Shown here: positions 15,374 to 55,400 of the stretch, piece after piece
Numbering within the stretch: the first letter of the stretch is position 1
Layout of the letters: each line of letters opens with the position of its first letter
NCBI RefSeq assembly: GCF_964355755.1
Contig: NC_092679.1
Span: 2,108,001 to 2,172,000 of the forward strand
Source of the DNA: Antedon mediterranea
Lineage: Eukaryota > Echinodermata > Crinoidea > Comatulida > Antedonidae
Direction of reading: 5' to 3'
DNA length: 64,000 bases
Made by a program: the position numbers and the translations under genes
Notes under the pieces: generated by a model
Databases searched by the model: none
What the model saw: only the letters and a program-made list of their open reading frames with translations
What the model was told of the DNA's origin: nothing

Positions 15374-18300
15374 CTAAGTTTGTGTTTTTTTCATTGACAA
15401 CTTCTTGAGTGCGTCCACTATCATCTTCTTGGATTCCTGGTTATTTCCACTCCGAAGGCCCTTCAATTCATTTACGACCGTGTCCTGTAACATAGCAATA
15501 AAGCAACAGTAAATCAACCAATGACAGTCTCTTAATTCTTGCTATGATAAATCAGATAATCTTTCAAAAAGTCAATCCGATCTTACAATAAACCAATGAG
15601 GCTGACTGAATCAATCACTTGCCCAGTCAATCTTGAAGTCAAATCTCTGTATAGAGGCCCTATCGCCAGATATAAATTTAAAGCTTAGGTACAGGCATGA
15701 ATTTTAAATTTAATATTTGGTTAATTGTACATAAATCAAATATTTGTAACAGAAATCGAGACGAAAAAACATGAATTTCACTTAATATGGTCAAATACAA
15801 ACTTTGGCAAAATTCTTCCATAAAAACCAGGAAGACTTTTTTTCAGTAGTTAGGTAGTTAACCTAATGTATAACATGTCTGGTGACTCCCTAGACGGTGA
15901 AAAAAGATGTGGATAATTTTGCTATAGCATGAAAATAAATTTTGAAGTTTTTACCACACCGTTTATTTTTCATAGCTTTTTAAAATGCCTCTCTATTTAC
16001 AAAATGTGTGTACACAAACGAATAGATATTTTACTGTGTAATTTGAACTATCCCCCCACTGATAAGAAAGTGCTTATTTTCAACAAACTCGTGTAACACA
16101 AATAAAATCCCAAAAATTATGAAGCATAGGGGAAACTATAGATCGATAATTATTGGAATGTATGATCAATAGAAATTTTTTGCCCGCACCTGGCCTTTAA
16201 AAGCATTGTACAGGCAGGGAAGATAATGCAATTTCACTTTTCCCTGGTATAGGCCTAGCCTCCTCAATCCACGCATACAAAATGAAACAAATATTATATG
16301 TTTCTTTAAATTAATTTGTATTATGTTTAATATCTTGATGTTTTGTAAATTCAAAAATATATTTATAAATATGTTATTTACAAGTAATATTAATTATTAC
16401 AAAGGAGCAGTTTAATTTGAAATATCAAGTTTCGTTGCCATTTAGAAATGTCCGATGCAAAGAACATTGCCCGACATTCGATCCGACAATCGACAGAACC
16501 AATTTGGCGATTCACAGTTTGTTTTTTTTTTGCAAAATTGCAAATTTTCTATTATCAAGAAAACGGCTCAATTACAGTATAATAACATGTGTACATTGTT
16601 ACACGCCTTAGGTGTCTATTTCATGCGTCAAGTTCAATATTTATTTTTAGTATATTAAGTTCTATCGGTCACCGAAAGTTTAGCTATATTAATTAGAAAA
16701 TAATATTGTTAAAAATAGCTGATAGTGTACCCATCTACGAAATGGTAATAATACCGGAAATATCTTGGGAGCTTGGCTCACACTTTGGAGACGCAACGCA
16801 ATGACGTAAGCGCAAGGTAAGCTATTTGACCAATCGCAATCAATATATTATATTCAACCTGTCGCTTGAAATTGTTCCTCGCTTGAGTTGCGCTTACGAA
16901 CCAAGCCTAATCCTTCGGAACGCGGTTTGAAACCACCAGCACACAGTTAATTGAAGAATTTTACATTAAAGATGTATTGTCTCCACAAAAACATGAAAAA
17001 TGAAGATTATTAAAATCAAACCTCGAATATGCCATTTTGTAATTTTAACAAAGTTAATTACTTCCGTAGAAAAATATCCAGAAAAAATAATGTTTTCACT
17101 TATAAAATGACAAAATAAACAGTTAAATTCAATCAAAAACCCATTGGCTGGCAGCCAATTTGACTATTTTTTGCTCCAAATTACAGTTTTTTCAGGTAAA
17201 TAATTTTTTTTCTCGATTTTTGGTGAAAGTGAATAACTATTATGTGACATTAAAATGGCATATTCAACAAACAAATTGTAAAAATTTATTTTTTCAGGGG
17301 GACAATACATCTTTAAAGTAAGATTGTACCGATTATCTATTTAACGCATGCGCAGTACTGCAAACTGTTCAATCTGATTGGTCGATTGCTGCAGCCATAT
17401 TGAACGGTTTCTCTCCATGGTTACTATAGCTTTTGAGCTTTTGTATTGTTTGGCCGTCAAGCTCCTTTGATATCATCACTACGATTTGTATTAATACTTA
17501 ATCTTACCTTTATGTTTTCATTACTTCCCGAAAGATCTTGTTCGTTTTCTTCTTCGTTGTCAGATGAAAATGATGACGAATCTTGGTTGTCGTCTACTTG
17601 TTCGTCTTTAAGTACAACCTCAGGTTGTCTTTTTACATCATCGTAAAATTCATTGTTCTCATTACCTTCTCGTATTAAATTATCACCAGTCTTTTCAAAA
17701 TTATTATTTTCTTTTATTTTTTGGTTTGTTTGAAAGTTATTGCTGATTCTATTAGATCTTCCTTTACTTCCAAAGTTATGTGTATTCATTGCCATATGCT
17801 TTTCTTCTGCTGGTATTTCACTCGCAGAATCATTCCCATTTTCCTCTGCTGGTGTTTCGCTGGCAGAGTCTTCTCCATTTTCCTCTCCTGGTATTTCGCT
17901 GGCAGAATCTTCTTCATTCTCCTCTGCTGGTGTTTCGCTGGCAGATTCTTCTCTATTTTTTTCTGCTGGTATTTCACTCGCAGAATCTTCGCCATTTTCC
18001 TCTGCTGATGTTTCGCTGGCAGAGTCTTCTACATTTTCCTCTGCTGGTGTTTCGCTGGCAGAGTCTTCTCCACTTTCCTCTGCTGGGATTTCACTCGCAG
18101 AATCACCTTCATTTTGTTCTGCTGGTGTTTCGCTGGCAGAATCTTCTCCATTTTCCTCTGCTGGTATTTCACTCGCAGAATCTTCTCCATTTTCCTCTGC
18201 TGGTGTTTCACTCGCAGAATCGTCCCTATCAATTCCATCTTCTGTATTCTCACTGTCGTCAACTTCTTCGGTGTCTTCTGCAGGCGTTTCACTGGCGGAA

Positions 18301-21300
18301 TCTTCTGCAGGCGTTTCACTGGCGGAATCTTCTCCATCAGTTTCCTCTCCTTGTAATTTATTTTGTTCTGCCGGTGTTTCACTTGCGGAATCTTCTATGT
18401 TAGCGTCATCGGTATCTTCTGCCGGTGTTTCACTTGCTGAATCTTCTATGTTAGCGTCATCGGTAGGCCTATCTTCTGCCGGTGTTTCACTTGCGGAGTC
18501 TTCTAAGTTAGCATCATCGGTATCTTCTGCAGGAATCTCACTGGCTGATTCTTCATCATATTCCTCGTCACTTGCTGAATCTCCATTTATAAGCTCTTGT
18601 TTATTATTCCACGTAAATGATGAGGGTTTGTTTTTCAGTCCACGAAATTCACCCGGTTTTAACTCGTTGTAAAAGTCCTTCACTGAAATATATAGCAATA
18701 TAAATTTAGGTTACAAGACCAGTTATATTTTTCCATAAGTGATGTAATACATAAGACAGATGCAATATGGCCAAAGCAATCGGGAATAAGATGACTAACT
18801 TGTTAACTTACTTCGATCAGCTGGAGTTTTTTCTTGTCCTCTATTATTTTGTTTCGTGACGTCATTTTGTTCCAACATTTCACCAGGTATCAGATCTTTA
18901 CCTGTAGAAAATTTGAGACATTGAGACAAATAATAAATAAGTTCCCTTTTTATAATTGTTGTTTGAATCAACATTTTACTGTTAAATAAGATTGTTGCTG
19001 ATATGACTCGCTGCATAGTTCATAGTTCATCAGTCATGCGTTATTACAATTGATATTTTACCATTATTTACTTTATTCTTATGTAAGGCATACGTGTAAT
19101 TTAAATGTATCTATAATAAAGGTATCTATAATAATATACAGAATACAAATTATATTTTCATCCAATCACCTTTGGCCAACTGATTCTGGTTGTTTTGAAG
19201 TTCTGCGACCCATTTCAAAGTTTTCTGAAGCTTCTGATGTTCAAACTCCAAAGCTTTTAATAGATGATACAGGACATTATCTACAGTGTTCTTCCATTCG
19301 CCCGAATCTGGTAGCCATCCACTAACACTGCTCTCTCCTTCTGCAAGAGCACCGTCTCCACTACCTTCATCCTTATTCCTTTTGCTCTGAACGACGGAAG
19401 GCGAACTATCGCCCAATTCTTTTACGTATTTCATTGCTGCAAAGAAAGTGCCGTAACATCATTAACAAATAATAAGAAAATATCTTATAGGTGTTCCAGT
19501 TTGCTGACATTGTGGTCCTGCTGACTTTGCCCAAAATACGTTTACAAATTGTGAAGTGAATTGACTAGAGAACAATTTTTGATTAATTTTTGAAGACTAT
19601 AAATTAATAATACGCCGCTAAATTATATTCTGAATCTGAAACAAACATTTGTAAACCGTTTTATAAGAGCTGTTATAAAATGTTATGTAATATTGATTTT
19701 ATTTTCATTGTTATGTTACATTCCTGATTGAAATAGCTTTTAGAATTCAACATGATACTGGTTTAGATGAAACTCTAATCCTTATGGCATATCGATTGCA
19801 GTGATGTTAAAGCCAACTGTCAAATGTGCACATACTTATGCAACAGAAATATGATGTATTACAAGAATGGTTTTGATAATGTAGGAGGCTTAACACCAGT
19901 GTTGAGAAACACGGCGGTAGTAAAAATAAAGCTTGGTTCCAACTAGGACGTAACGCAAACGTAAGCAATTTGATAAATGACAAGCGATAGATTGTTTTGA
20001 ACTATCAGGGTCAACTCGCTTGCGTTGCTCTTACGTCCCTGCGTTGCGTGGTTGTAGGAAACAAGCGTACGTCAACGACTGCGTGACGAATAAGCGTAGT
20101 TCACCGACCACCATGCTTCAACAACGCCAGAGCCATATATATGGCTCTAAAGCGTGGTTCCCACTAGCGACGCAACACAAGGACGTAACGCAACGCAAGT
20201 GAATTGACCAATCACAAGCGATGGCTTATTCGCTTGTGATTGCTAACTGTCTATAACTTCGCTTGTCATTGGTTGAAACGCTTGCGTTGCGTTTACGTCC
20301 TTGCGTTACGTTCTAGTGGGAACCAAGCTTTAACAACGCAACGCAAGGACGCCGCGTAACGTAGGATTGGACCTATCAAAAGACGGTTCGGATAATAACT
20401 ATTATTTGGAATTTCTGATGATTATTGATGACAACACGGATCCATGATAACAGAATGCAAAGGATGCAGATGATGATGATAATGGTACCGTATTTCGATA
20501 ATTTAATTCATTTCAAAATCTTACCTCCGTTTACCATTTCAAGACACTCTTCACTTACACCCGAGAGGTCCATTTGGTGTGATTTTTCCTGCTGTGCTAT
20601 CAATCTTATGACATCAGCAGCGCAATTGTTCAATTTCTAAAAGAAGAAAATGTAATAATAATGTCAATTATTTCTTACTTTCTTCTTTAGGCCTATTGTA
20701 TTTAGAACATTTTAGCAGGGAAAACAATTTTATTTTAAACTAAAATAAATCCTACTCCAAAAATAAATTGCAATATCGCGAAAAAAGGAACAAATACATT
20801 TATTTTTGTTTTCTGTGCTTCCATGATATTAATAGTCTTTTTATGCTTTGCTTGTTTGTTTTCTTGTCTGTCTGTCTGTTTTGTTTTGTTTCTGTACGTT
20901 AAATTAAACATCAATATGATGTTTTTCTTAAAGATTCAAGATTCAAACTTTAATCTAATCCATTTCTGGAAATTCCATTGCTTGCATTAAAAATTACAGA
21001 ACAGCAATTACAATACAATTGAAATTACAATAAAACTTATTGGATATATGTATATCACCGGGCGGTTTCGAATTAATGTTCATTGCCTAATGTGTTTTTA
21101 TATATATAATATGTATAAATCCAAAGGCAAATTACTGAAAAAAATGACAATGCTGTGGGTATTAGTGGCCGGATCTCAATGAAGATACAAAAAAAAGAAG
21201 CGAAAAGCTAAATCAAAACGATAAAGTAAAACAGCCAGAAAAGTTAGCAGAGCTATATTCAATAAACATAATAGCTATAATAAATTTTAGCTATATAAAC

Positions 21301-24300
21301 AATAAAATGCAAACTATTTACAGTATATTTCTCATAATTATCATCGTTTGTAATTGTTGTTAAAAAGTGTAATGGCTTGTGGAGAAGGAAGGAGAGAAGA
21401 TATCGTTCAGTGCGGGAGGCCGGCAGACGATATCTCAGTAGGAGAAAGGAAGGAGAGAAGATATCGTTCAGTGCGGGAGGCCGGCAGACGATATCTCAGT
21501 AGGAGAAAGGAAGGAGAGCAGAATCGTTCAGTGCGGGAGGCCGGCAGACGATATCTCAGTAGGAGACCTTCAAATTGTATTGCTTTGCTTTGCGTCTTTA
21601 TTATATATGTCAACATTTTTATTTTTGTTACCTTGAAAAAGAAAAAGAAATAAATGTTATTGATTAATTGATTGATTGATTTATTGATTGATTTATTGAT
21701 TGATTTATTGAGTGAGAATATTTTGTTTTTTCATTTTATATGTAATATTACTTTCATACTATAAATTCTACTTTAATAATAGACATAAATCGTGTATCAC
21801 GTTACTTATAGATGAAAGCTTCTAGCTAGCTTTTAGGCCTCTAATATGTTTTCCAAATGTCTCGTCAGCTTATCAATTAGTCGCGATGACTGGTTCTGCT
21901 GCCACATCCAGTCATTCACTACATTAGCTGATGTTTTGACATTGGCCTAGAAAACTGTCATGGTTTTTTCTTGATGAGCCATTGGTCATAATTGTTGACA
22001 ATGTTGTATATTAGACGCATCTATCACTCAGTCGTTGCCTTTTCTTCATTTAATTAATTGTTTTAGTATTCATAATCATGATTCACTCACTCATTAAAAT
22101 GTTGTTATTCAGAACTAGCCTATTTTACCATTCAATATGCACAGTATTATATTTATTGATTTATATATAAACAGAATCATACAATAAGATGCGTTATAAT
22201 AAAATGTATCCTAATTTATGTTCCGTTTTCTATGATGTATTCGGTTGTTAACTGTACTTTTATTGTACGGCCTGTACAGCGTTCTTTTGCTACACATTTT
22301 GACTTTAATGGCCGCCCATAATATTCGTTATATTAGGCATAATAATTTCATACTATATATGTTGATATGCTTAATCCCATTCTTTATCACTATGTGAGGT
22401 GTCATCTTCGTGAATATAACCTATTTCTTTGCATAGATTAATCATTACTTGTTCTTTGTATGAATATCCTAATGTAATGAAAGCTCTGTCTACACTGTCA
22501 AATTTTATTTGAAAATATATGAAATGATAGTGATTATATGTTATATGTGATGTGCCCATATATGGACACGATGATGTCATATCCCACTACCATATTAAAG
22601 CATACCACTACCATATTTGGGCACATCATATTTTCCCTTTGGTCAAATTAGTATGATAGTGTAGAGAGAGCTTAAAACTAGATTTAAACTCGCCATTTGG
22701 GACGAGTTAAGTTATCAACGCAAACGCAAAAGCAAAATGCACTGCGTCCAACGCTAAAAAAATGCGCACAGAAATTAATTATGCCATCCTATGACCTTAA
22801 GTAAATATATTCTTAAATTATTCTGGTTTTCCATTTGACAACAATAAATAGTAATCACATCCAACGTATAAGAATATATGACAGACAGGCCGACGATCGA
22901 CACAAGTTTAATAAAACATAATACTGTATTGATAAATAAAAAACGCAACTGACCAATAATTTCCAAGGGATAACAATGAATGGGAGGGGTTGGGTGTGTT
23001 TAGTTGGCACGGCAAAACCTGGCTTTTTTAAATCTCTCATTAACTTATTGATGATATCCTCGTGCATTTTCAAGGGGGTTGTCCTCGTTTATCCACCAAA
23101 CGTCTCCTTTTCTGCTTCTTCTTCTTTCGAAAATATCATAAATCGATATAAAACATATTCTAACCAGGAATTCTGTTAAGCGTTCCATCCTTGGAAAATA
23201 AGTAATTTATGTATGTATTATTCAGAATCAGTTTCCCGCTAATTCGTACAATTTTCTCGAGTAATTGAGTGTCTTTTCTAACACCGCTGTTACTTAATAA
23301 TAACTGTAAATGTATATGAATCAGCAGCGTTTTAGTGATTTTGTGCTAAAAAAGAACAATAACCCTTTCATTTACCATGGCTTATTCATGAATTGTAAAA
23401 ATATTCTATTAATATATATATATGTTATATAATATTATAATACCGCTGTTTTCGCAGGGAAAATGTTTCAGCGTGTAATTTCTTGCTATTTTCTGCCAAT
23501 ATAGCAGTTGAAGAATAATATATAGGCCTAAGGTTTATTCTTTTATATTAACCATAATAATTTCATATAATCAGATTTAAAAGTAGGCAGAATGTATTTA
23601 AATGGTAGGAAACCTCAACAATTATAATATTATACACCACTGTTTTCTCGGGGAAAATGTTTTAACATATACGCTAATTTTTTCTGCCAATAACAGTGAA
23701 AGAATAAAGGTTTATTCTTTTTCTTTTTAAACATAATAATTGCAGGTTAAAAAGTAAGCAGAATGTATTTAAATGATAGGAGGCCTGAATAATTAGAGTA
23801 TAAATCGCTCGAAGTCTATCTACTTAGAATCGTAAACCACTTTTTAACGATGTTATGAGTAATAATGAAGATAATCAGTCGTCGGATTATGATAGGAATT
23901 ATTCAAGTAGAATTTTTATTGTAATAATTAAAATGCATTAGGCCTACTCGAGCGGTATCTAGACTTGCCCCAAGTCTGTATTTATTGTCTTTTTTATTTT
24001 AGTCCACCAGTCGACGTTTCGATTTTTGTCTGAAAATACAACCTCAAGTATAGTATACGTATGTGCCAAAATATTTATATTTTTACTAATATTAGGTCCG
24101 TCTGGAACCCAGACTATAGAGCGGTATGTTGATTGTGCTCTTTCTTACAACAATCTTCATCCCATGGGGTACTGTGGGCTAGTCAGTTTTATAGTGAGAG
24201 TATTACTTAGTATAGGGCCTAAGCCTGTTTCCGTCAGAAGACACGATACTGCAGAATGATTATTTTCACTAGATATGATACTCGAATCGACTGGATTCAG

Positions 24301-27300
24301 GCAAGTATAAAAACCCCCTTCTATTCGTATTCTGACTCGAGTTTCAGAAATAATATTTCTATATCGTGGTTTTTAAGCACTTATTAGATTGCGAAAACCC
24401 ATGATCAATCCTATGCAATTAATGTAACTTGTCAGATCCTAGTCATATAAGGGTCCGTTACTGTTGAGAAATTGCTGTAAGAGGAATTTTATGCAAAGCC
24501 TTCTCTACAAACATAAATCCTTGTCACATAAAGGCAAGACGTATAATGTATTGATAGGCCTACAACGCAGCTGACGATTTGAACTAGAACCTTTTAAAAT
24601 GTAGGCAACACAGAAACGAAACCATAAAGAGCAGTTTTGTAGCATAATGTCCCTTCCTTAAACTCATAAATACCAATTTCTACCCCACTCCAAGCTTACC
24701 ATCAGACGTTATAATAAATGTACAAAACACTCTGATTTGAGTTTAATATGCTGGAGTTCAGGATAGAGAGAAGAGAAGTGGGCGGAGCTCAATTTATCTC
24801 AAACACAGAGTACTGTTCTACGTTAAAACAATAGTTCATGTTTAGCATTTGAATAGCTAACAATAGCCTTATACACTCGGAATCTTGCAATTAAATTCTT
24901 CAAATGTTAACTCCGACATTCGGAAAATTAGGCCCAATACATACATTAATCAATTGTTGAGATACAATAGTCACGATATATTGCACAACGTACATTGTGT
25001 ACTGAAGTCACCAATTCATTAATTTGTAATATAAACAGATGGCTTTCCTTTAATTAATAACCTTTTTATATGATATAATAACCCTTTTATATAATATAAT
25101 TATGCTCCCCTTTTAAGTTAAAAATTACATTAGGCTGTCACGCATGATTGATTAACAACATAAAGAATTCGTCACAAATTTATCAAACTTTCTATGTTAT
25201 TATGCATATCTACGGTAATTCGTTAAATGCTTTTAAGGCTATAGTATGTACATTTATCGTGTAACGTGAACTGAACTTAGATGGCCCTAGAAATCCTCAA
25301 TTATGAGTAATGTATAATGAAAAACATGAAACATAGCTTACCGCATCTGTCGTGTCAGTGCCTTCCGCAACTCCTTCCGGTTCAGATACTGGTTTCCCAT
25401 ATCCTAAAAAAACAAATCATTATTAAATTTCATTTCAATCATAAAATACGATAAGTATAAAACAAAATGTAATGTACTGTACTGTATACACAGACTAAAC
25501 GTCAGGCTGTTGTAGTGGTACCCGAAGCTAAGTTCACTTTTATTTTTTGTTAATAAATTTATGAACCTATACATTAGATAGGCTCATGATTTTACCAAAT
25601 ACCCGAGACAACATTGTTGAGATGAAATTGTTTTCACATTAATTTATATTTATACTTTGTATTTAATTTTGTCAGATTATAATATAATTTGTCATTGTGT
25701 AGGCATACAAAAGATCACCACATTTGGAAACAACGATACCGATTAATTTTATATCTCAATTCTTCATTGTGTTATAACAAAAATGTTCTCGGCAACAATA
25801 CAACTTTGATCTGCTACCAGGAATGGTACCAGGATTTTTTTTAATGTTTTAATTTAACAAAGTTGTTGAGCTCTGTCTACACTATCAGGCCAGGGAGTTG
25901 TTACTAATAACAACTCCCTGATCAGGCTTTATGTGACAAAAATGTGATGTACAAGTCAAATATCAAATTATGGTAGTAATACGTCAGTATGCTTAAATAT
26001 GGTAGTGATATGATATCATCATGTCCATATTTGGGTACATCACATTTTTTTGTCACATAAAGTTTGATAGTAGACAGAGCTGTAGTTTATATCGTCAAAA
26101 TTATGCGCTATTATGATCATACTTTAAATACAGTCTGATCTTCAAGTAAAGCTTTCAGCGTATAATAAGACAAACGTGGCGTATAAATACATATCCGGTA
26201 ATATGTGCATTTTCAATAAACACTAATATAATTCGAAGGTCTACCACATATGGTTTCCACAATTAGAAAATCCATTCAACGGTAGTATTGTAATCAACGT
26301 AGCTATAATTAATCGTGCTCTCCTCCTCAATCATGCCTTCGTCGAAGGTGGTATGCCTAAACTTATCAATATATTAGATGTTAATTGTTAAAACGAGAAA
26401 ATGCAAATCATGTAACTGTGAGTATTTCTCACAGACATATTTTGTGATACAGTGTAAGATGTGTCCCTAAATGACACAGGAAAATACTGCCAAATGCCAT
26501 AGTCAGTTGAAATTTAAAAATGTTGTTATGCTTTTTATATAACTGTATAATGTAAATTTGGCGCAATTCAGATTATTCTGCAAATAATAAACCATAATTG
26601 AATTGAATAACCGCTAATAGTAAATATGCGTGGAGTGTGTTATTTCTGTTGTAGCTTACCCAACCTTTGTTAATCTCATAATCTCATATTTTTTTTATCA
26701 TTAATCCTTTGTTATAATCTGCCATTATTATAATAAACCTCAATATTGAGCGCGCGCCTTAAGAACAGCCACCTGAATTCCCCACTGTATAATTAATCAA
26801 TTGTATATGGTCAACGTTGTACAGTTATCACAGCGTCAGCGTTTGTGCGTAGCACACATTTTGTCGAAAACCATGAGTAATAATTACTACTCGTCTCAGG
26901 TGTTAAACTATAACAAAAGTATTTATAATTTGGTGCATTGACCACGCAAATATTGCACCAGGGATAATAGTCTGAATTGTTTTAATTGCTTTTGTTTCCA
27001 AGAACGGACATGTATTTATTTATCGCATACATTGACATATAAGATAAGTACGTGAAATAATGATAAACTAAGTATAACCATCCAGACTCTTAACAAGGCC
27101 CAAGAGATACTATTGTAACACTCGCATGTCTACCTGCGTATGCTTAGGCGCAGGGAGAGCGAAATTACTTAATTAATTCTCTGCTAGGCGTTAGTCTAGG
27201 TTCTAGGCGGAGTGTTTACTTAATTTTAACAGTAAAAAGATAGGCCCTCATGATGATTCTGCACATATGGCGTTTCATACGTATACAACTTGAGCTCGTA

Positions 27301-30300
27301 ACCTTAGTATTTTCAGACAAATATCGACTAACATAAAAAGCAATAACTAAATACTTAAGGCAAGTCTACCTAGGCCTAACAAAAACCCACCTCATTGCAT
27401 TTTTCTTTCAAAAGCACACCTTAATGTGACGACAATAATGCTGGCTTCTTAGTAGGCTTACGCTTCAGTCGGAATCTTATTAGGCCTACCACCTCCCTGT
27501 AATAGCTGTTTGCTTACATGAGACTGTTTACTTGAGATAACAAAAGTAAATGGGTAACACAAAAAACGTTGAATAATCGCATACCCAGGTGCAATCCCGT
27601 ATTTGCATTTGATTATGCAATTAATTCGACCAATCACAAGCGACAATTCGGATTGGCCGCCACTTGCTCGTAATCATTGTGTAATGTCAGTGAATTGAGG
27701 CTTAAGTGGGGGACGGGATGAGTTTAGATTTGAACTTGAGATTGAATTCATTTCATACATTTTTAGTATGATATAGTATACCTATGTACAAAATTTATTA
27801 GAAAATGATTTAAAAATAAATAAATAAACAAGATCTGTGAGGGGAGTGAGGTTCAGCCAATAATTTGACGTCTTTGAAGATGACGAAATGGCGCGTATTT
27901 AATAGGCATATTAACCATGTACAACCATGAGAAGCCAATGTCTTAGAGTAAACTTTCCTTTTTTATGTAGATTGGGTCGATATCTATACAGTATACAGAT
28001 CTGATGTATAATAAAGAATTAACCTTCGCCATGTACAACGAAGTAACGCCTTATATTCGGCTTGTGTTTAAATAACATCGATCGTGCTAGTGGCAACTTG
28101 CGGACGCCTGTTGCATACTCGATTGGTTATAAACACACTTTGATTGTTAACATACAATTCTTGGATATATCGTCTAGATAGGGTAACGACATACAATGCT
28201 TGGATACAATCTAGAAGGGACAATTATACAGACATTACCTGCCTATGGGTGAAATATAATATTAGACATCTCCGAGAGAATTTTATTTTTATCAACGGAA
28301 ATAATATATATCGAGGGAAAATATAATCCTAAGATAATGCTTATCTTGTGACGTCAGACGCGATATATCAATTTTGATCCTCTCGGATCAGTGGTCACCA
28401 TTTCGTCCAATCACGTTCCTGTGTTCGGCACAGACTATGTTATAATATAATATCATATTTATGATCATTGTATTGCATTGTATCCTTCCTTATTATGTGC
28501 CCATGCCATTAAAAAAATCGTAATATTTTTGATGATTTTACAGTTTAGATAAAAACGTCTTTATGTCGAGCTTTAACGAATTGACCATTGTAACCATTTT
28601 TTATTTGAAATGTATATTAATAATGTAAGCCTAGATGATGGATGTACACCTGGCATTACGTACGTTCACAAATACAAATCAACGTATATATTTCCTCTCC
28701 GTATTTTGATATACATTAAAACATATTCTCATCATCAGTCGAATGTAGTCGTAGAATGCATGATGAAGAATATTATAGGTATAAAAAACATAGCATTATC
28801 AGTATATATTACATAGTTGTAAGCACGGCGTTGTTAAACTGACTTAATGCACTGTATATAAGATGAATCGAAATGTCACAGAGACTTATCGCAAAGCCGA
28901 ACATGTAGTACATCTTGTTTAACTAAGACCAAAAGCAGGTTGAATACGCTGATGTGCCTACGTACAGTTGCCTAGAGCATTGAAGGGTCACTTTAAGGCC
29001 ATGTCGTCAGTTTATACAATTATTACGCATAGTACACCACGTTTACGTCGGCGCGATTTACTGTTACGGATACCATACCGTATACGTTCCGTGTATGTAA
29101 GTATAGTTTAAGGGTCGCACAATCTATTTGCGGGAGCACACAGATGCCTTGGTCACACATACACACGTACCACTGTATATAATAATACTGTCTACGAAGA
29201 CTAGACTAGTTTTGCCTGTAGCACACTGAGTTTACGTGCGGGCACACTTTCGTGTAGAAGGTTGATGACTTAGTAGCACACGATGTTTACGTCATGGGAC
29301 ATGCGCATTCCCGGTCTACTAAGTACGAGGATCAGGCTACTATAATATAGCTATTAAAAATAAAATATTGTTTTATCTGTACCACATGACTACGTGTAGC
29401 ACACTAATACTTACGTGTAGCACACTAATTATTACGTGTAGCACACTAATACTTACGTGTAGAACACTAATACTCACGTGTAGCACACTAATACTTACGT
29501 GTAGCACACTAATACTTACGTGTAGCTCACTAATACTTACGTGTAGCACACTAATACTTACGTGTAGCACACTAATACTTACGTGTAGCACACTAATACT
29601 TACGTGTAGCTCACTAATACTTACGTGTAGCACACAATGTTTTCTACACAAATGGCCATATGCACACTACCGTACTAAGACATGCTACATTTACGAGAAA
29701 CAGACCCTAGACGTGTAGCATACGTTTACGTGTGGCACATATATTTACATGTAGCACACCATGTTTCATACAAACATTATTATGCACACTACGTACTAAG
29801 ACATGCTACATTTACGAGAAGCAGACGTGTAGCATACGTTCACGTGTGGCACATTATATTTACGCAATGTAGCAAGTTAATTTTACATGTAGCACACAAA
29901 TCTAAGTACAGTCCAGGTTAGTTAAGGTTATCCTGAAATAGACTGTTATTCAAGAATACACAATAATGTCATAGACATGCTACATTTGCGAGAAGCAGAC
30001 CCTAGACGTGTAGCATACGTTTACGTGTAGCACATTATATTTACGTAGTAGCAAGTTAATTTACACAACTTTAAGCTACGGTTTAGGTTATTTAAGGTTA
30101 TCATGAGAATAGACTATTATTCAAAAAGCACAATAATGTTATAGTACGCTTATTTTTAATTACACTTAATATTGATTGTGACCGGTGATAAATTAGGCGA
30201 TAGACTTGAACAAGTATATTAGAAAATGTTGTTAAATATTGCTAATGCCGGAGGAGCAACGTTAAGTCATAGGATTATATTACTTCATATACACATACAA

Positions 30301-31331
30301 ATCCAATGTTCAATTATTCGAGCACGAACCGGGTGGTAATAAAATAATTTGACGGCGTAATTAATATTTTCAATCAACACGTCTGTATTGGATTATGTAC
30401 GATGAATGGCAAACATGAATAACAAGCGTACAGACCGAAGGTTGGTTAGTAGAAATAAAAATGTTGACATTAAGTCGTCAACAAGCCTATTAAAAACAAC
30501 AATATATAGATATTTAAACTAGCAATATATCTTTAGCGTTAGAGTTGCATACATATGTCAATATATACACTGTAAGTATATTAAACAAGGCCATATACAT
30601 GGCTGCAGTCGATCGCGTGCGCAAATTTGAGTTAGTGTTTACCAACCGACCAACCGACCGACTAAAAACAAGACCACTCCGATGGCCAAGGTTCCAGTTT
30701 CTTTATAATAAGAAAAGTGCTCTTTCCTTTTTTTTTATGTTATTATTCTAAAGCTCTGTCTACACTATCAAACAAAAAAAGTGTAATGTGCCTAAATATG
30801 GTAGTGATATGACAACATCTATCCTGTCCATATATGGGCACATCACATAAAATTTGATAGTGCAGACAGAGCTTAATAATACTCTTCTTCAAATTAAAGA
30901 TAAAAGGTTAGTAATAATTCGTCATTTGGTATGACAAATTTGTAGTGCGCCGTGACTCATCGAGCACGTGATCAAACTACTTAATTACGTGAAATTATGT
31001 GGAATGAGTTCTTTGCATTCAGTACATCTTATATGAATGTTTGTAAGGAACAGGATTGGGGATAGGAAAACGAATACGATAGATTAAGTGAATTGATAAT
31101 TTTATACTTAAAGGTTGTTTAATTTGGATAACCGCGCAGCAATCTCTAGCTTTCAGAAATTGGGCAATGTCTCTGGTTAGAGACCCTACACCTTTACCCA
31201 GTGTGACGTGTATTCGAAAAGTCATTATCCAATATTCTAAGACTCACGCTTTCTTGTGGAAATTGCATTACATAATAAAATTACATAATTTTACCATGCA
31301 TGGGCTAAATTACACAATAGACGTCATTATA

Positions 31332-31368
<37 letters not shown>

Positions 31369-32752
31369 TATTTTTAGGAGCTACCTTACAATGCCAATTG
31401 ATAATTGCAAAATATCTTCTTTTCTGTTACCATTCCCTTTGTAAAATTAGGCATTACTGGTCTCTGTGTTATGCTGTTGTGCTGAAAATGGACCTGTCAT
31501 ATATTAGCTTCCACTAGAACCCTAAATTCATTACGCATCCTCCCCCCCCCCCACCCACCCCACCCCACTCCCTCAAATCCGTCGTCCCCTAAACACCAGC
31601 TTTCAAATATTTCAAACGATATTTGAAATAACAAATTGAAATTGAAGCTATAAAAATCATTATTATTAATAATAATTGTCCTTTTTATAGCGCCTAATCA
31701 AATTAAATTGTCTCTTAAGCGTGGTTCCCACTAGCGACGCAACACAAGGACGTAACGCAACGCAAGTGAATTGACCAAATCACAAGCGATGGCTTATTCG
31801 CTTGTGATTGCTAACTGTCTATAACTTCACTTGTCATTGGTTAAAACGCTTGCGTTGCGTTTACGTCCTTGCGTTACGTTCTGGTGGGAACGAGGCTTTA
31901 ACGCGCTACGAACTAGATGGAAATTACGTCATTTCATATGCTATGCGAAAGAGATGGGTTTTCAGCAACTGTTTGAAGATGTTAATATAATTGGCATTCT
32001 TGAATGATTGTGAAAGAGTATTTCATAAAGCGTGGTTCCCACTAGCGACGCAACACAAGGACGTAACGCAACGCAAGTGAATTGACCAATCACAAGCGAT
32101 GGCTTATTCGCTTGTGATTGCTAACTGTCTATAACTTCGCTTGTCATTGGTTAAAACGCTTGCGTTGCGTTTACGTCCTTGCGTTACGTTCTAGTGGGAA
32201 CCAAGCTTTAGTATGGAGCTGTACAAGAGAATGACCGGTCAACAAATGTATGTCTACGTGTTCTTGGTTGGTTGGTTTTATAATACTTCATTACTATGAC
32301 GTACCGATTAACATCAAGAACAAAAAAACCTTTTTCCCGTACCACCTGATGATGTATTACCCTCTGATGCATTAATTTTATTATCTCGCAGGTAGTAATT
32401 AATTTGTTACGTAATTACAAACCACTAGCCAGCCAAATATTCTTCTCTCCTTTTAATTACTTGCAACAATGTCAATACAAACTTCAATTAATTCTCACAG
32501 AACGTGCTCATCGATCGCTTTTGCGTAAATATTAAGAAAAACCACACGTTTATTTAAGAAAGATATAAGTTTCTTCCATACTAGCCTATGTATTCTGTCT
32601 AAACATTTCAGATAATATTTAACTTTCGTATTCCATATAACTGTATGAATATTCAAACACGCATCTCGGCGGTTAATGAATAATATTAACTTACCCGTGA
32701 TAGTTAAAACGCCAACAAAAAGTAAAACCGATGTTGTACTTGGCAAATGCAT
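15374..32752 (-). CDS. Secreted acidic granin-like protein, seven exons, 624 aa
   Basis: Exons on the minus strand: 32695-32752, 25342-25403, 20525-20636, 19170-19436, 18812-18901, 17508-18682, 15374-15484; phase is kept throughout. Residues 1-20 are a signal peptide (MHLPSTTSVLLFVGVLTITG). The mature protein has only two cysteines, C45 and C71, both in exon 3, in KLNNCAADVIRL...GVSEECLEMVNG. This resembles the single disulfide loop at the N-terminus of chromogranins A and B, including the VS-[QE]-EC-[FL]-E end, but with a 25- rather than 20-residue spacing. A dibasic KR (96-97) and an amphipathic stretch (NTVDNVLYHLLKALEFEHQ) follow. Exon 6 holds about 17 SASE[TI]PAE repeats, then a KRQ site. 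The C-terminus (DTVVNELKGLRSG...) is basic and amphipathic. Inference: a regulated-secretory-granule protein of the granin class. The gene structure is firm; the homology is a hypothesis. Confidence 0.75.
16770..16912. mobile_element. MITE family B, old diverged copy
   Basis: Runs from GAGCTTGGCTCACACT to GCTTACGAACCAAGCCT, with degenerate 'GACGCAACGCAATGACGTAAGCG' blocks. The inverted-repeat layout matches the young copies at 20149-20332 and elsewhere. Confidence 0.6.
16966..17316. mobile_element. MITE family C (about 350 bp)
   Basis: Termini TTAAAGATGTATTGTCTCC and GACAATACATCTTTAA are inverted repeats. The centre has 'TTGGCTGGCAGCCAATTTGA'. A second copy is at 33637-33915 and a worn one at about 59225-59406. 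Confidence 0.85.
17812..18585 (-). repeat. 39-bp coding minisatellite in exon 6 of the granin-like gene
   Basis: About 17 copies of a unit encoding SASE[TI]PAE plus a variable acidic linker (EENGED, EDTDDANIED). Copies alternate between T and I at the fifth position. The unit is free of stops in several frames on both strands, which explains the long antisense reading frames here. Confidence 0.93.
19930..20069. mobile_element. MITE family B, diverged copy
   Basis: From AAGCTTGGTTCCAACTAGGA to GTTGTAGGAAACAAGCGT with the ACGTAACGCAA motif at both ends. It lies 80 bp from a young copy of the same family. Confidence 0.65.
20149..20332. mobile_element. MITE family B, young copy 1 (184 bp)
   Basis: Left end AAAGCGTGGTTCCCACTAGC, right end CTAGTGGGAACCAAGCTTTA; the terminal inverted repeats are about 45 bp and hold GGACGTAACGCAACGCAAG. 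Four other copies in the window differ at only a few positions. Confidence 0.93.
21380..21562. repeat. 61-bp tandem repeat, three copies
   Basis: GC-rich unit GGAGAAAGGAAGGAGAGAAG followed by ATATCGTTCAGTGCGGGAGG and CCGGCAGACGATATCTCAGTA. The ATATCGT...ACGATAT pair makes each unit partly self-complementary. Confidence 0.92.
21659..21712. repeat. (ATTG/ATTTATTG)n simple repeat
   Basis: Alternating ATTGATTG and ATTTATTG blocks, possibly the 3' tail of a degraded retroelement. Confidence 0.85.
22480..22674. mobile_element. MITE family A copy (about 195 bp)
   Basis: Left end AAGCTCTGTCTACACTGTCA and right end TGATAGTGTAGAGAGAGCTT flank the usual 'ACCATATTTGGGCACATCA' motifs. Confidence 0.88.
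25868..26082. mobile_element. MITE family A copy with an inserted hairpin
   Basis: Normal family-A ends (AGCTCTGTCTACACTATCA; GATAGTAGACAGAGC) enclose an extra 30-bp hairpin at 25891-25920, placed where other copies read ATCAAACTAGTTTGAC. Confidence 0.82.
25891..25920. repeat. Hairpin, 13-bp perfect arms
   Basis: CAGGGAGTTGTTA, four-base loop, TAACAACTCCCTG. It shares the CAGGGAG start with the 38-bp palindrome at 496-533. Confidence 0.9.
29030..30065. repeat. Minisatellite complex built on TTACGTGTAGCACAC
   Basis: A compact 21-bp array (about 12 copies of ACGTGTAGCACACTAATACTT) occupies 29388-29637. Degenerate units precede it from about 29030. Larger blocks follow, beginning 'GACATGCTACATTTACGAGA' at about 29680, 29803 and 29968, each ending in further GTGTAGCA motifs. 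It is a higher-order repeat with no coding role. Confidence 0.85.
30750..30875. mobile_element. MITE family A, short copy
   Basis: AAAGCTCTGTCTACACTATCA-type left end and ATTTGATAGTGCAGACAGAGC right end, about 126 bp. Confidence 0.88.
31335..31364. repeat. (AT)n microsatellite
   Basis: About 15 uninterrupted AT dinucleotides. Confidence 0.95.
31717..31900. mobile_element. MITE family B, young copy 2
   Basis: 184-bp copy; its right terminus reads CTGGTGGGAACGAGGCTTTA, with a few substitutions against the consensus. It lies 126 bp from copy 3 in the same orientation. Confidence 0.92.
32027..32210. mobile_element. MITE family B, young copy 3
   Basis: 184-bp copy with both termini intact (AAAGCGTGGTTCCCACTAGC; CTAGTGGGAACCAAGCTTTA), almost identical to the copies at 36264 and 43889. 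Confidence 0.93.
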
Positions 32753-46401: not shown

Positions 46402-49400
46402 TTTGAATGCTTCCTTTCTACTATAGAATGAAAGACTGAATTTAATCAATAGAGAACTTGAAGAGAAGGCAGAATCATCGGAACTACAAATTAACACAAT
46501 ATCTCAGCAGTACAGAAATGTCCTGCATGAAAAACAAGTTTGTATAATGCTTATTATTATTTCTAAAGCAACTAAGCAATAAATATGAGTATTTGAATAA
46601 ATTTAAATAATGCATGTAGGCCTATAGTATTGTATTACTGTCTCCTGTCATTGTTTCCATCAATGTCATCTTTATAGCATTGTTGCAATCTTTACATTGT
46701 AGTAGTTATTGTTGTAGTCATCGTTAACTTTATTCATTGATAGCACATGATATCATCAGTTAATATGCACTATTTATATTCTTTCGCTTTGCTGTAAAGG
46801 ATGAACTAAAAGAGCTAAAGCAGAGACAACATGAAATGGAGAATTTCCATTCAATGATGACAATGTCACCAACAATGACAACTAGTACTTCCACAAGTTC
46901 TTTATCTGGATCTAAGATTCCTGATAGTCATGACTTTGACGATGTCATCTCCTCTCAACATGAGATCAACCGTCTGTCCAAAGAGGTTACAAGACTGCAG
47001 GCAGAATGTGACAAGATGAGACGACTACATGGTGCTCATTCAGAAAAAGTTAGTAATTCAATTTTCTACATGTTTACTTGGTCTATTGGTACTGTGTACT
47101 TGTCTATTGGTACTTTGTACTTGGTCTATTGGTACTGTGTGTTGTGAAATTAACAATAGATTGTGATTGCATTTCAGTCTAATTTTAAAATTGGCGGTGA
47201 CGATGAAAACACAAGTATAGATGAATTTAGTTTACATGATCGAATAAAGGTAAGCCTGCTGTGGTTTTAAACTAACATTGTATATAACCGTAAATACGGT
47301 TTTTATTGTATGTATTAGTAATGTTAGTGAAATACTTGATATACAATATCCAAGCTACTATGCACATTTTACTGTACTCAATCCATATAGGCCAGAATGT
47401 TATTTTTATTTTATGATGTTTTTTGCAGGAACTTGAAAATCAATTAGAAAAAGAAGTAGACAACCATCAACATGAACTGTCAATTCTACAAGACGCCCAC
47501 ATACAAAAACAATCAAATATTAAACGGCAACATAAATTAGAACTAAAAGACCTTCAGGATAGATTAGATCTTTTACAAGACGAAGGATCATCATCAGGGG
47601 GTAGCACGCCACACTCGTCACCGATTCACTCACCCTCCAGTCCGTCAAGTATAATGGACGTTGATCGGTTACAGAGTGAATTACGAGAATCTCAACATTC
47701 CTTGCAGAAATTACGGAAAGATAGACAACATTTAGAAGAGTCGAATAAACGGCTAAAAGTTGATCTTGAACAAACAAGACTGGTTGAAAAGGAGAAAGCA
47801 AGAACGTTGCAAGTTCTTAATAGACAATTAGAAGCCATACAAACAGAGAAAAATGCTTTGTTTAATGATAATGAGCAGTTCCGAAAAGAAAAGAAGGATT
47901 TGAGGGAGAAATTGAACACTTTACAAACGGAAAATGCAAATATAAAGGGAGATAAAAGAAAACTTGAACAGTCTGCAGAGAGTAAAGAACAAGAAATGCA
48001 GTTGGTTAACAGTAAGCTTCATACGCTTCAAGATAAGGTCAAAGGTCAGAAAAAGCTTGAAATATTATAATGAGGTTACATTGAATAGTGTATTGTACTT
48101 TAGCTCTAAGATGCTTCATGCACTATTAATTGGAATTTTGCTGTTGCTGAAAAACATACAGAATGTGGTGATTGGTTGATCACTCACTGTACAATAGTTA
48201 AGTGTGAACATTTCTAACAAAGACAAATATTCACACTTTTAATAAAACAAAGAGATAAGTACGATAGTGTTATACAAATCTAACAAATATTTAAACTGAT
48301 TGTGTCTCTTCTTTTTACTAGTTCAAGAAGATGAATTGGATGAGCTACGTGGAGATAATGATAAGGTGCGAGAAGACTTGTACACTACTAAACAAAGATT
48401 ATTGGCTGCACTGGATGCTAGTCATGTACAGTTTGCTTATTTGCTTGCTTTATATGAAGCAAGCAGCATGGTCTCTGCAGAAGTAGAAATAGCATCGACC
48501 TTTAACCTCATTCATGTAACCTCTGACCTGCCAGTAACCTTTAACCTCTTTAAACCATTTTCTTTATTGACTTTTCTAACCTTATACCATGGATTAACTT
48601 TTATACTATCTTTATATTATTATATATAACTTTAAATTGCAAGTCAACAAAATTTCTTTTTTGAACTGAAAATCTAGGCATGTGTTATTTACAGTATTTA
48701 ATGGGAAATTATATTTTTTTTAATGAAGAAAATTGTTTATAAAAATTGCATGTAATGTCTTTTGTTGGGTAAAATAAAAAATATTAATGTTATTTTATCA
48801 ACATACCAAATTACCTTGCAAATTATTTCTTTTATCTGATTGTGCTTTGACAAACCTTATTAGACAGGATCACATGATGCCTACACTGATCATTGATTGG
48901 TAATTAAAATATCATGTGATGTCTATACTTGTCATTGATTGGTAAATACTAGTTCTTATCTGCAGTTGAAAATGCTGCCTGTGCTAAACACCTTATTTAA
49001 ACTTTTCTTTGCTTGTTGATTTATGTAAATTAAATATGATTAAAGTTTATTTAAAATATTTATCATAATATCAATATTCTATCTGATTGCCGTGATAATA
49101 TTTAGCTTGCAGAATGCGCATCTTCCATACTATAATTTTAGTTAAACATGCCTGCATGTAATGATGACACATTATTAACATTAGCATGATTTTTTAATAC
49201 TTAATATACCATCAACCGGTTTTTACACTACCATAGCATTATCTACATTAACATAATTTTGCATAGCATTAATTTCTACAGATAACTATGCAACCTACGA
49301 ATAATAAAATAAAACCATTAAAACTGCAAATTAACAATATTAAACATTTCCAAATTGTTTAATATTTTAAATCCAAATTGTTGATTGATTGTTAAAACTC

Positions 49401-52400
49401 CAACACAATCTTCGTCAGCTTAAAAATAGTAGGCATATTTTAAATCTTTTTCCTTTTTTTTAAATCTGTCTATAACCCATGTTCTAATGTATTGATATTT
49501 TTCAGGTTAGTACAAGTACAATGAGACAAGAGCTGAGACATGCTAGAAATAAATTTAGTAGTAACGCCATGATTAGGCGTACAAAACTACTGAGAGAAAA
49601 ACAAGTCATCGTTAATAAGATGATAGACATTGGGGAGCAGGTATGCAGCAGTGACTGACAACACAGACCGCAGATAAATTAATATATGTCTCAGTAATAA
49701 TGTGTATCGCACATCATAATAAAAGCATAATAAATAAATCTTATTGGATTTCAAATATAAACAGTATTAAAAGAAAATAATATTCATAAATATAATCAAT
49801 AATAGTACACAAACTAAGATTTAAAAAAATATTCTATTTGATAGAAAGATTTCTGTTCTCCAACGAGATTTGAACCTATGATCTCTCACACACAAGACCA
49901 GAGTCTTGACCACTAGACCACAGAAAATGTTATAGGTTAATTCATAACGGTATACAAATTAAGATAACAAAATAATCTATTTGAAAGAAACATCTCTGTT
50001 CTCCAACAAGATTTGAACCTATGATCTCTCGCATACAAGACCAGAGTCTTGACCACTAGACCACAGAAAATGTTGATGCTTTAATAGGTTGATTCATAAG
50101 AGTATACAAATTAAGATAAAAAAATAATCTATTTGAAAGAAAGATCTCTGTTCTCCAACGAGATTTGAACCTATGATCTCTCGCATACAAGACCAGAGTC
50201 TTAACCACTAGACCACAGAAAATGTTGATGCTTTAATAGGTTGATTCATAACAGTATACAAATTAAGATAAAAAAATAATCTATTTGAAAGAAAGATCTC
50301 TGTTCTCCAACAAGATTTGAACCTATGATCTCTCGCATACAAGACCAGAGTCTTAACCACTAGACCACAGAAAATGTTGATGCTTTAATAGGTTAATTCA
50401 CTTCCATGAAAAATTGACGAACAAAGCAAAGCAAAATACATAAAATGAAATTACAAATGAGAATTTAGAATACTAAAATAAAGTCTTTTTTTCTTCAGGT
50501 ATCTGAAAGTAAGAGTGCTGTTGCTAGCCTCCATGCAGCCAGTTCTCAGATGAAATCTGAAACATCTGGAATGATAGGAGATCTTGGTGACACCGAAATG
50601 CAAGATCTTACTTCTGAACTTGTGGACACTCTGGAAGTAGAGAACCAGTTGCTACGCGAACAGGTTGTAAAACTAGAAAACGAAGTGTCGGATCTTAACC
50701 AGTCGTGTTCATCCCTTGCTGGGGATAAGAAGGAATGTGAAAATCTGATTGTTCAACTTAAACAGAATCTTCATAGAGATGAGTTGTTCAATTCTCAAGC
50801 TGGACTGGACAGTGAAACCGAAAGTGTTGCTAGGCCGCCTCTTGAGGAACATGTTGTGCAGCACATACAGTATAAACGCCCCAGATCTCCTTCCGACTCA
50901 AGCACAGAAACTGGAGAGTCTGCCAAGACTGGCGTCGAAACCATGGATGCTAGTAGCGATGGAGAGCGTAGATTGGTGGAAGGGTCAGATTCTATTAGCT
51001 TTGATGGAGAGTATGATGATTCCATCATGTTCACTTCTATGAAACAAAGGTATTACAGATATCTCTAATGTACTAAAGTACATTTTAAATTAAAACAACT
51101 TTTTTTAATTGACTGTATACTTAATTTTGTTTGTTATCTTTATCAATATAGATTTCCAGAAGCTGCCCATGTCATTCAACAACAAATTGAACAGTTTGAA
51201 ATGTTTCAAGCTGATTGGACGATGGAGAAACAAGCTCTGGAGGATGTTGTTGTCCATATGAGAGCACAGATGAAAGAGAAAGATATGCAGATGAAGCAGA
51301 ACATCACTGCTCAAGAGGTGAGAAGTTACAGAGTTTTCACAAAATTGCAATTTTTTCCAATAAGTGTCTTTATGGCACTGCTCAACGTTATCTTCATGAA
51401 CTTATTAAACCATATGTCCCGCTACACAGAGGTCTTCATTCTGAATTTTACACATGCATAAAAATTGGGTTTCTGGTTTTGTTTTTATGGCACTGCTCAA
51501 AAACACATGCATATAAATTGGGTTTCTGGTTTTGTTTTTCAGGGGCTACTCCAAGTTGAAAACGAAAAGCAAGACAAACTACAAGAACAAATGAGCCAAC
51601 TTAAAACTGAACTTTCAGCATTAGAAGACAAATATACTAGCTTACAATCAGAAAATGAAAGTTTGCAAGAAACTCAGGTAAACAAAATTGTACAAGAAAT
51701 ATTTTAATTTAGTTGTATTAACCTTTCTAAAATTATGTTAAGTTTTTTTTTTTAAATTACACTAATCACTAAAGCATGATGCGCATGTACATGATGTATA
51801 ACCTATAGAATAAATTAGTCCATATCTGCTGTACTGTATAACCAGTTAAATTACGTTTGTGACAAAATTACCTTTAATTTAATTGCAAACAAGTTTGTGT
51901 TTTTCTTTTACAGAATATTTCTAAGGAGCAGTCTAAGGAACTATCTCTGAGCTTTAGCGAACAAACTGAAATAATTGATAATTTAGAAGAAGAAAATATG
52001 AAAATGACTACTCAACTAAAAGAGTATTTAAGCAATATTGAAAGCCTGCAAACAGAAATTAAGAAACATAAAGTAGAAAATGAAAAAGATAAACAACAGT
52101 TAGTTGAAATCACTCGGGAAAGAATTGATCAGCAAAAGGCTATTGAGGAGCTGGACCAGCAACATCAAGATGCAATCTCGCAAGTTGTTTTAGCAAGAGA
52201 TGATCTTGCAAAACAAGTCGAAAATCTCACTTCAGAAATGTTTACTGCAAAAAAACAGTTGGGAGAAGCTAATCAAAGAACAAACACAAACGAAAATCAA
52301 ATAAAAGAAATTGAAGATTTAACTAACAAATTAAGCGAAGAAAGGATTAAACAACAGCATTTGGAGGAAGAATGTGCAAATAAAACCAGCGAATTAGCCT

Positions 52401-55400
52401 CACTTCAACAAGAACTTCAGGAACAAAAGGTCTTGTCTATTGAAACTGAGAGTTCTAAGAAAATCATGGAAGAAACAACTAGAAATCTTCAAGAAAAAAT
52501 ATTCCAACTAAAAGAAGAGAGAAAAAACGAAAAAGAATCTGAGGACAGACTTGACAAATTAAATGAGGAATTGTCTAAACTACACAAAGAATTGAGTGAA
52601 AGAGTGGAAATGGTATCTGATAAAGAAAAAGAAATTTCGTTTCTTAATGATAAGATAGAAGCACTTGATGCTGAACTTGTAGAGATTGTTCAAGAGAAAG
52701 ATAGGCTAAATGTCTCATTAGTAGAAAGTGGAGATAAACTTCAAAGTCTCTCTACATCAAAAGATGATCTCCAAAAAGTTGTTTCTAATCTTGAGATGGA
52801 CCTTGAAATCACTCAAACTGAAAATGAAACATTGAAAAGTGATCTGCTCAACAAATCTAAACAATTTGAAGTTGCAATGAATGAAATTTCTGAAAGTAAA
52901 GACGGAACTGATGCTGGAGAAGTTGAAAAACATCATCTTGTACAATCGAAGTATCAGAAAGAAACTAAGGTTGAAGAGTTAGAAAATCAATTAGCAGAAA
53001 TGTCACAAGATCTTCAAGAAACGAACGATATGCTGACATCTACTCTTGAAAACAACAAGAAATTATCGGATGTACTTAAAGAAAAAGAAGAGGACATTAA
53101 GAGTTTGGCTGGAGAAAATTTATTTCTTCAAAATACTGTCGAAAAACAGAAAACAAAGTTGACAGAAGGCGTAAGTGTGAAAGAACAGAAGCAACAGTTA
53201 GAAGAGATTGTAGAGAAGTATGAAGAAGAAAAGAAGATGTTGAATACTGAACTTCTTGAAGCTCAAAGAAAATTACAAGCAACTCCCGAACGTGAAATTA
53301 GAGAAAATCAAACATTGGGAATTATTACAGAATTAGAATCTGAAGTTGAAACATTGCGAATTGAAGTAAAGGTTAAGAATTCTGAATTGTTAAAAATTCA
53401 AAATGAAATGATGGGTGCAAAAGAGCAATTTGAAGGACAACAAGATAGTTTGAATGACTCAAGACAGATGGCAGAAGATCTTAAAGAACTATTACAAGAG
53501 AAAGAAAAAGAATTTATTGAAATGAATGAACAACTAAATTCAAGAAATCAAATTCTGGATTCCTTTGAAGAAGATGGCAGCCTGAATAACTCAATTGTAT
53601 TAGAAAAAGAGGCAGAAATAAATGGATTACAGAAGAAACTTCAACAACTAACACAAGACATTGATGTTTACAAAGAAACATTATTGAAGAAAGAAGAAGA
53701 AAGAAATGAGTTATTAAACCAAGTTGATGAAGCAGCCAGGGATCTTGCAAATAAAGACCAAATTTTAGATAATACTAAAGATGAATTTGAAAATCAAATT
53801 GTAACGATGGAATCAATTTTAACAACCTCAACTGAAAAACTGGAAAACATATCAAGAGAACTGCAAATCAAAGACGATAACCTATCTCAAGTTAAATTCC
53901 GCATGGATAAACTTGTAAAGGAAAAGGACGATGACATCCAGAAGTTGATAGAAGAAAATGAGATTCTGAAAAGAGAGTTACAAGATAAACAAAAAGATAT
54001 CCTCGAGTTACAGACAACAGCCCATCTTCAAGTTATATCCAATGGAACCAAAGACCAATCAGGACTTAGTGACAATGAAAAACAATTTGAAAAGATCATC
54101 AAAGAAAGAGAAAGAGAGATTTCAGGCTTAAAAGAAAAAGTGTCAGTGCTAACTAATCTACTAGATGAGAAATCAAAATCAGTTATGGGTAACAGTGTAC
54201 TGGTTGATCTTCATAAAGCACAGATGCAAGTGAAGACATTTGAAGCAGAACGAAACCAGATGATGACGGTTTTAAATGAGAAGACAAGGGAGTGTAGTAA
54301 TTTAAAGAATGAAGTTCATAGACTTCTTAGAGTTGTTTCCACAGATAAAAATGCCTTAGATAAAGCTATGGAAGACAATCACAATATGGTAGAAAAAATG
54401 AAAGGACCAAATAATGACATGAGAAAAGAAGCTTTACAGAATTTATCTAGACTGGTTCAAGACAAAGATTTAGAAATTGAAGCGTTGAAATTAAAAAATG
54501 AATCTCTTTTACAAGTATTGCAAACACAGAATCCTGAAAAAACCAGCGATGTATCAAATCTTGTGATGGAAAATAGTAATTTGCAAAAGTCAAATACAGT
54601 GCTCATTGAAGAAAGAGATCAGCTAGTTGTCAGTATTCATCAGAAGCATCAAGAAAGTCTTGCATATTATGAAGAAGTACAAAGACTTGCTGGTATTATT
54701 TCAACAGAGAACCAAAATCACAGCAGCACTAAACTTCAGGTACAGGAATTAACAAAAGACTCTCAGCAAAAAGAATTGGAGTTATCAACAATTAAATTTG
54801 AACTTGAAGATAAAAACAATTTGGTCATACAACTTCAAGATGATCTAGAAAAACGTAGATTGTCGTTTTCTTCATTGGAAAACGATTTCAGTAATTTAAA
54901 TGGCAGTTACTTGGAAATTGAGAATGTTAAGAAAGATCTCGAATCAAAGCTTTCTGCATCTCTTTTTGAATCAGAAAATCAAAGTATAATCTCAAGTGCT
55001 CTTAAAGAAAAAGAAATAGAGATTATTGAACTCAGAAAAGTAGTAGATGAACTTAATAAAAGTTTAGCTCAAGGAAATAATGTTGTAGAAAATGTTGACC
55101 AATTAGATAGTGCTTCTCCTCCGATTAATGTAACCTCAAGTTTACCTCTTGAAACCAATTCTGTTGATGCAGCTGAACTTAAAGCAAAAGAAGAGGAAAT
55201 AGAATCCTTAAAAGAGAAACTAGAAGACATGACAAATATGCAGGAAATTATCAAATGTTTAGAAAATGAACTGAGTGAAGAAAAAGTATATTTACAAGAT
55301 TTGAATGTAAAATTTAAAGAAAAAACTCATGATATTAAGAAGAAATCTGATGATATAGCAATGTTGAAAGAGCAAATTGATATTCAGAATCAGGCTTTAA

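Follow-up and report, generated by a model that had tools for sequence, protein, structure and literature searches.

A possible chromogranin-like gene near TRIP11 in the crinoid Antedon mediterranea

The window analysed here is a 64,000-nt stretch of contig C10 (NC_092679.1, positions 2,108,001–2,172,000) from Antedon mediterranea. A first-pass annotation made from the letters of the DNA had proposed an invertebrate deuterostome as its source, which the crinoid origin bears out. The window contains a seven-exon gene on the minus strand (32752 to 15374) that encodes 624 amino acids in one frame and is the candidate considered below, together with a PHF7/G2E3-type gene and TRIP11. In window positions, the features are as follows.

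32752–32695, minus strand: candidate exon 1, start codon and signal peptide (amino acids 1–20), with the hydrophobic core VLLFVGVL and the splice donor GTAAGT
25403–25342, minus strand: candidate exon 2, mature N-terminus KPVSEPEG... (amino acids 20–40)
20636–20525, minus strand: candidate exon 3, C45 and C71, 25 residues apart (amino acids 41–78)
19436–19170, minus strand: candidate exon 4, KR site 96–97 and a long predicted helix (amino acids 78–167)
18901–18812, minus strand: candidate exon 5 (amino acids 167–197)
18682–17508, minus strand: candidate exon 6, acidic body with 17 [DE]SASE-type repeats and KR 547–548 (amino acids 197–588)
15484–15374, minus strand: candidate exon 7, basic 36-residue C-terminus and stop codon
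37857..45600, minus strand: extended PHD gene of the PHF7/G2E3 type (zf-HC5HC2H match, 2.5e-9), the candidate's neighbour
46764..58381, plus strand: TRIP11 (GMAP-210), a long coiled coil ending in GRIP (3e-7) and GRAB (1e-6) matches

In the PHF7/G2E3-type gene, the large exon contains a tandem repeat rich in lysine and glutamate (MEKSTKMKGKRPTEDETAKYLKEKE). A nearly perfect 30-bp minisatellite (window 6476–7175; 23 copies, 98% matches) has long open frames on both strands, and two purple-acid-phosphatase-like exons lie in opposite orientation at window 3866–4147 (plus strand, with a Metallophos match) and 8921–9208 (minus strand). To the left of the window (C10:2088001–2108000), a tandem array of two or more genes resembling glutamate carboxypeptidase II (NAALAD) was recognized by eye; a Pfam scan of three ORFs from this region returned no match. 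Intron 1 of the candidate contains a 21-bp tandem repeat (TACGTGTAGCACACTAATACT; 11.7 copies, window 29391–29635), and near-identical inverted-repeat elements (AGCGTGGTTCCCACTAGCGACGCAAC...), apparently MITEs, occur in its introns at window 20150–20330, 31715–31900 and 32028–32210.

All introns of the candidate gene are bounded by GT..AG, with phases 1, 0, 1, 1, 1 and 0, and the joined coding frame of 1875 nt has a single terminal stop, with AATAAA polyadenylation signals 53 and 59 nt 3′ of it. Measured against open stretches of equal length within the introns of the gene, codon scores placed exons 2–7 in the top 0–2%; exon 6 is longer than any such stretch. In the 13-residue repeats, variation by codon position was 7/13/26, highest at the third position, as expected of protein-coding repeats. 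Exon 1 is supported mainly by its signal peptide and splice donor, because its codon score is weak (13% of open intron stretches do as well). This unremarkable score and the length of introns 1 and 2 (7.3 and 4.7 kb) would fit an error at the 5′ end of the model, in which exon 1 or exons 1–2 come from another transcript and the signal peptide is perhaps absent. Such an error seems very improbable: the phases of exons 1 and 2 join (58 + 62 nt), the donors read GTAAGT and GTAAGC, a usable cleavage site comes after the hydrophobic core, and the introns showed no long coding frame that might compete. The model of seven in-phase exons and 624 residues, as first proposed, was confirmed at every coordinate by splice sites, phases and frame.

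The signal peptide was called from hydrophobicity and cleavage geometry; the best small-residue cleavage site follows G22, and cleavage there leaves a mature protein that starts KPVS. C45 and C71 are the only cysteines and may form a disulfide that closes a loop of 25 residues. The mature protein has a pI of 4.05 with 26.7% D+E, its repeats are DSASETPAEEN-type and arranged in 13-residue tandem units, and the product of exon 7 is a basic 36-residue end with a pI of 9.87. The signal peptide, the two cysteines, the long acidic repeat region and the basic C-terminus had all been described in the first-pass annotation, and each holds in the translation. Its dibasic sites are present too, but they number just two KR (96, 547) and three KK, the latter clustered in the C-terminus, against 8–10 dibasic sites in CgA (PMC12074958). 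A structure prediction of the loop, put forward at the same time as a check, was run with AlphaFold without an alignment: it placed helices at about 36–59 and 69–87 around the cysteines, giving a helix-loop-helix, but the model is weak, with a pLDDT near 70 in this part and 56 overall.

A signal peptide and two KR sites would also suit a neuropeptide precursor whose active product is one or several processed peptides (such as the region beyond KR 547) and whose acidic part is only a spacer. This reading overlaps with that of a granin, as granins also yield peptides. What makes a plain neuropeptide precursor nonetheless unlikely is that basic sites do not flank the repeats and that an amidation glycine before KR or KK was found nowhere in the candidate protein. 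The candidate is also not described in the text on 20 predicted crinoid precursors, and the text of this neuropeptide survey names no granin (PMC9793003).

The same genome encodes a vasopressin/oxytocin-type precursor on contig C4 (25447135–25455844), with a peptide exon (CFWRTCPVGGKR) and, about 8 kb downstream, a neurophysin exon that gives the only neurophysin-domain match in the genome. The encoded peptide is identical to crinotocin of A. mediterranea, CFWRTCPVG-amide, in which, according to the crinoid survey, Trp-Arg at positions 3–4 sets crinoids apart from other echinoderms (PMC9793003). The peptide thus marks the genome as that of a crinoid, near Antedon in this sequence.

The search against the granin family that the first-pass annotation had proposed was negative when made with the single sequence. 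The Pfam Granin profile (PF01271; curated cut-off 25 bits) gave no match at E<10 for the full candidate, for residues 1–238 or for residues 23–89. The N-terminal 68–69 residues of CgA (bovine) and CgB (human) served as positive controls, verified by the same scan; they scored 4e-26 (92 bits) and 2e-29 (103 bits), respectively. The PROSITE patterns GRANINS_1 (C-terminal) and GRANINS_2 (cysteine loop) are both absent from the candidate. Formal classification as a granin was rejected, because these defining sequence features, the Pfam profile and both patterns, were tested and not found.

Pairwise comparison bears on the resemblance first seen between the loop end GVSEEC-LE and that of CgA. In Smith–Waterman alignments with CgA, VSEECLEMVNG paired with VSKECFETLRG at a score that about 5% of shuffles reach at standard gap costs and about 1.4% with cheaper gaps; alignment with CgB was no better than chance (P 0.11–0.28). 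In hhalign against a CgA+CgB profile, the candidate scored 18.7, above 400 of 400 shuffles (best shuffle 18.5), but with an HH-suite probability of only 0.6–5.5%. Thus VSEECLE does align with VSKECFE, but the resemblance of the loop to CgA has a P of about 0.005–0.05 overall, with CgB worse, and these values are optimistic because the granin family was picked on account of the loop motif. We take the likeness as suggestive, at most a hint.

Searches of the genome, exon by exon, with the Pfam Granin and 7B2 profiles were empty and carry no information, because the same scan found nothing in control genomes either; a genome search with the bovine CgA N-terminus was likewise empty and is subject to the same reservation. 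The candidate's own genome yielded no paralogue, its weak matches elsewhere covering acidic repeats only, and the viral contigs hold no relative. Sequence and fold searches of the PDB gave no credible match and therefore no rival fold.

The missing family profile match, the lack of a relative in the same genome, the few dibasic sites and the 13-residue tandem repeats grown by duplication are what one would expect of an unrelated, lineage-specific secreted acidic repeat protein (of skeletal or extracellular matrix, cuticle or adhesive) that resembles chromogranins by convergence. Acidity, repeats and one disulfide evolve easily, and echinoderms make many acidic skeletal proteins. We regard convergence as possible but less likely; the CHGA-like exon plan weighs against it, and so does the site near TRIP11 on a chromosome that carries CHGA and CHGB neighbours, where a random gene would fall about 7% of the time.

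In the candidate, the signal peptide is encoded by exon 1, the mature N-terminus by exon 2 and both cysteines by exon 3, with a big acidic exon late in the gene and a short last exon. In CHGA, the intron preceding VMKC would be in phase 0 and the one following CFETLRG in phase 1, the same as around the loop exon of the candidate; this agreement is not counted here as evidence. In human CHGA, most of the signal peptide comes from exon I, both loop cysteines from exon III and the C-terminal fragment from exon VIII, and exons II–V make up the vasostatins (PMC12074958). Common to the two genes, then, are a signal peptide in exon 1, both cysteines in exon 3 and the C-terminus in the last exon (PMC12074958).

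TRIP11 lies one gene away from the candidate. Its GRAB match is the only one in the genome, and its C-terminal tail aligns to the vertebrate TRIP11 tail above 2000 of 2000 shuffles. Human TRIP11 lies at 14q32.12, about 1 Mb from CHGA; ITPK1, GOLGA5, CPSF2, ATXN3 and the legumain gene are further human CHGA neighbours, TRMT6 is a neighbour of CHGB and CFAP61 lies at human 20p11. Human CHGA itself maps to 14q32 (PMC12074958). Contig C10 carries the best matches for ITPK1, GOLGA5, CPSF2, Josephin (ATXN3-type), the legumain family and TRMT6. With TRIP11, this brings the human CHGA/CHGB neighbours on the contig to seven, and CFAP61 lies some 50 kb away from the candidate. The Josephin and legumain families each have a second gene, on C1 and C4, which is what paralogues of the JOSD and PIGK types would lead one to expect.

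C10 makes up 25.0 of the 354.4 Mb of the assembly (7.1%), and the chance of a random gene lying on it is about 1 in 14; a place beside a close human CHGA neighbour would be far rarer. Because neighbours of both CHGA and CHGB share C10, we infer that this contig derives from the ancestral chromosome in which both chromogranin regions have their origin. The neighbours other than TRIP11 are spread over C10 from 6.6 to 18.6 Mb, and with these genes scattered and local order scrambled, the closeness of the candidate to TRIP11 might be luck. We count the linkage as good evidence, though not as conclusive.

The granin proposed in the first pass is thus supported by the exon plan and by the linkage to TRIP11 and C10, but the Pfam profile was negative and the alignments are no more than suggestive; on these grounds homology is plausible and short of proof. 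On balance we lean slightly towards a chromogranin-like dense-core granule matrix protein, which would most likely be orthologous to the single gene that existed before CHGA and CHGB arose by duplication. That the candidate is the one-to-one orthologue of a single ancestral chromogranin gene falls just short of an even call.

In vertebrates, chromogranins pack hormones into secretory granules; they rank among the main proteins of the granule matrix and serve as markers of these hormone stores. By analogy, the candidate most likely works like a chromogranin. Its signal peptide, evident in the sequence, would send the protein into the endoplasmic reticulum, and the C45–C71 loop would pin the two N-terminal helices and could serve as a sorting module like the loop of CgB. 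The body of DSASETPAEEN-type repeats, presumably disordered, acidic and probably phosphorylated, would bind calcium, with the repeats acting as calcium and proton buffers. As the pH falls in the trans-Golgi, the candidate would condense with peptide hormones to form the granule matrix, by analogy with chromogranins, which are acidic, aggregate when the pH is low and calcium is high, and are segregated with prohormones (PMC12811389). Convertases would process the protein to a limited extent, at its two KR sites. The basic C-terminal helix may be released or may touch the membrane.

If this reading is true, granins of the CgA/CgB type date to the common ancestor of all deuterostomes. Granin-driven condensation of granules would then originate at the deuterostome base, and the process could be tested in a simple animal, the crinoid. 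The family would have been missed outside vertebrates because exon plan and location were kept whereas the sequence hardly was. Exon plan combined with TRIP11 linkage could guide the search for such fast-evolving genes elsewhere among the invertebrates.

Among known systems, the predicted crinoid neuropeptide precursors PCNP1–20 are, like the candidate, secreted, with a signal peptide and basic cleavage sites, but the text describes none among them that is long and acidic and has two cysteines and SASE repeats (PMC9793003). 7B2 (secretogranin V), reported in sea urchin, is the only granin-family protein named in an echinoderm in the literature searched (PMC6209648); the candidate differs from this family member in giving no match to the Pfam Secretogranin_V profile. 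Relative to CgA, the candidate has tandem 13-residue repeats that CgA lacks, and it is without the conserved C-terminal granin motif of CgA and without profile-level similarity; its loop has 25 residues against 20 in CgA and CgB, the five-residue difference remarked on in the first pass. Likeness to CgA lies in the loop end, VS(K/E)EC(F/L)E, in the acidic body (pI 4.05 in the candidate and 4.69 in bovine CgA) and in the mature N-terminus, where KPVS resembles the LPVN of CgA (xPV[NS]) and the MPVD with which mature CgB starts. With CgB the candidate further shares an N-terminal two-cysteine loop, in which its disulfide is putative, an acidic body and a short last exon.
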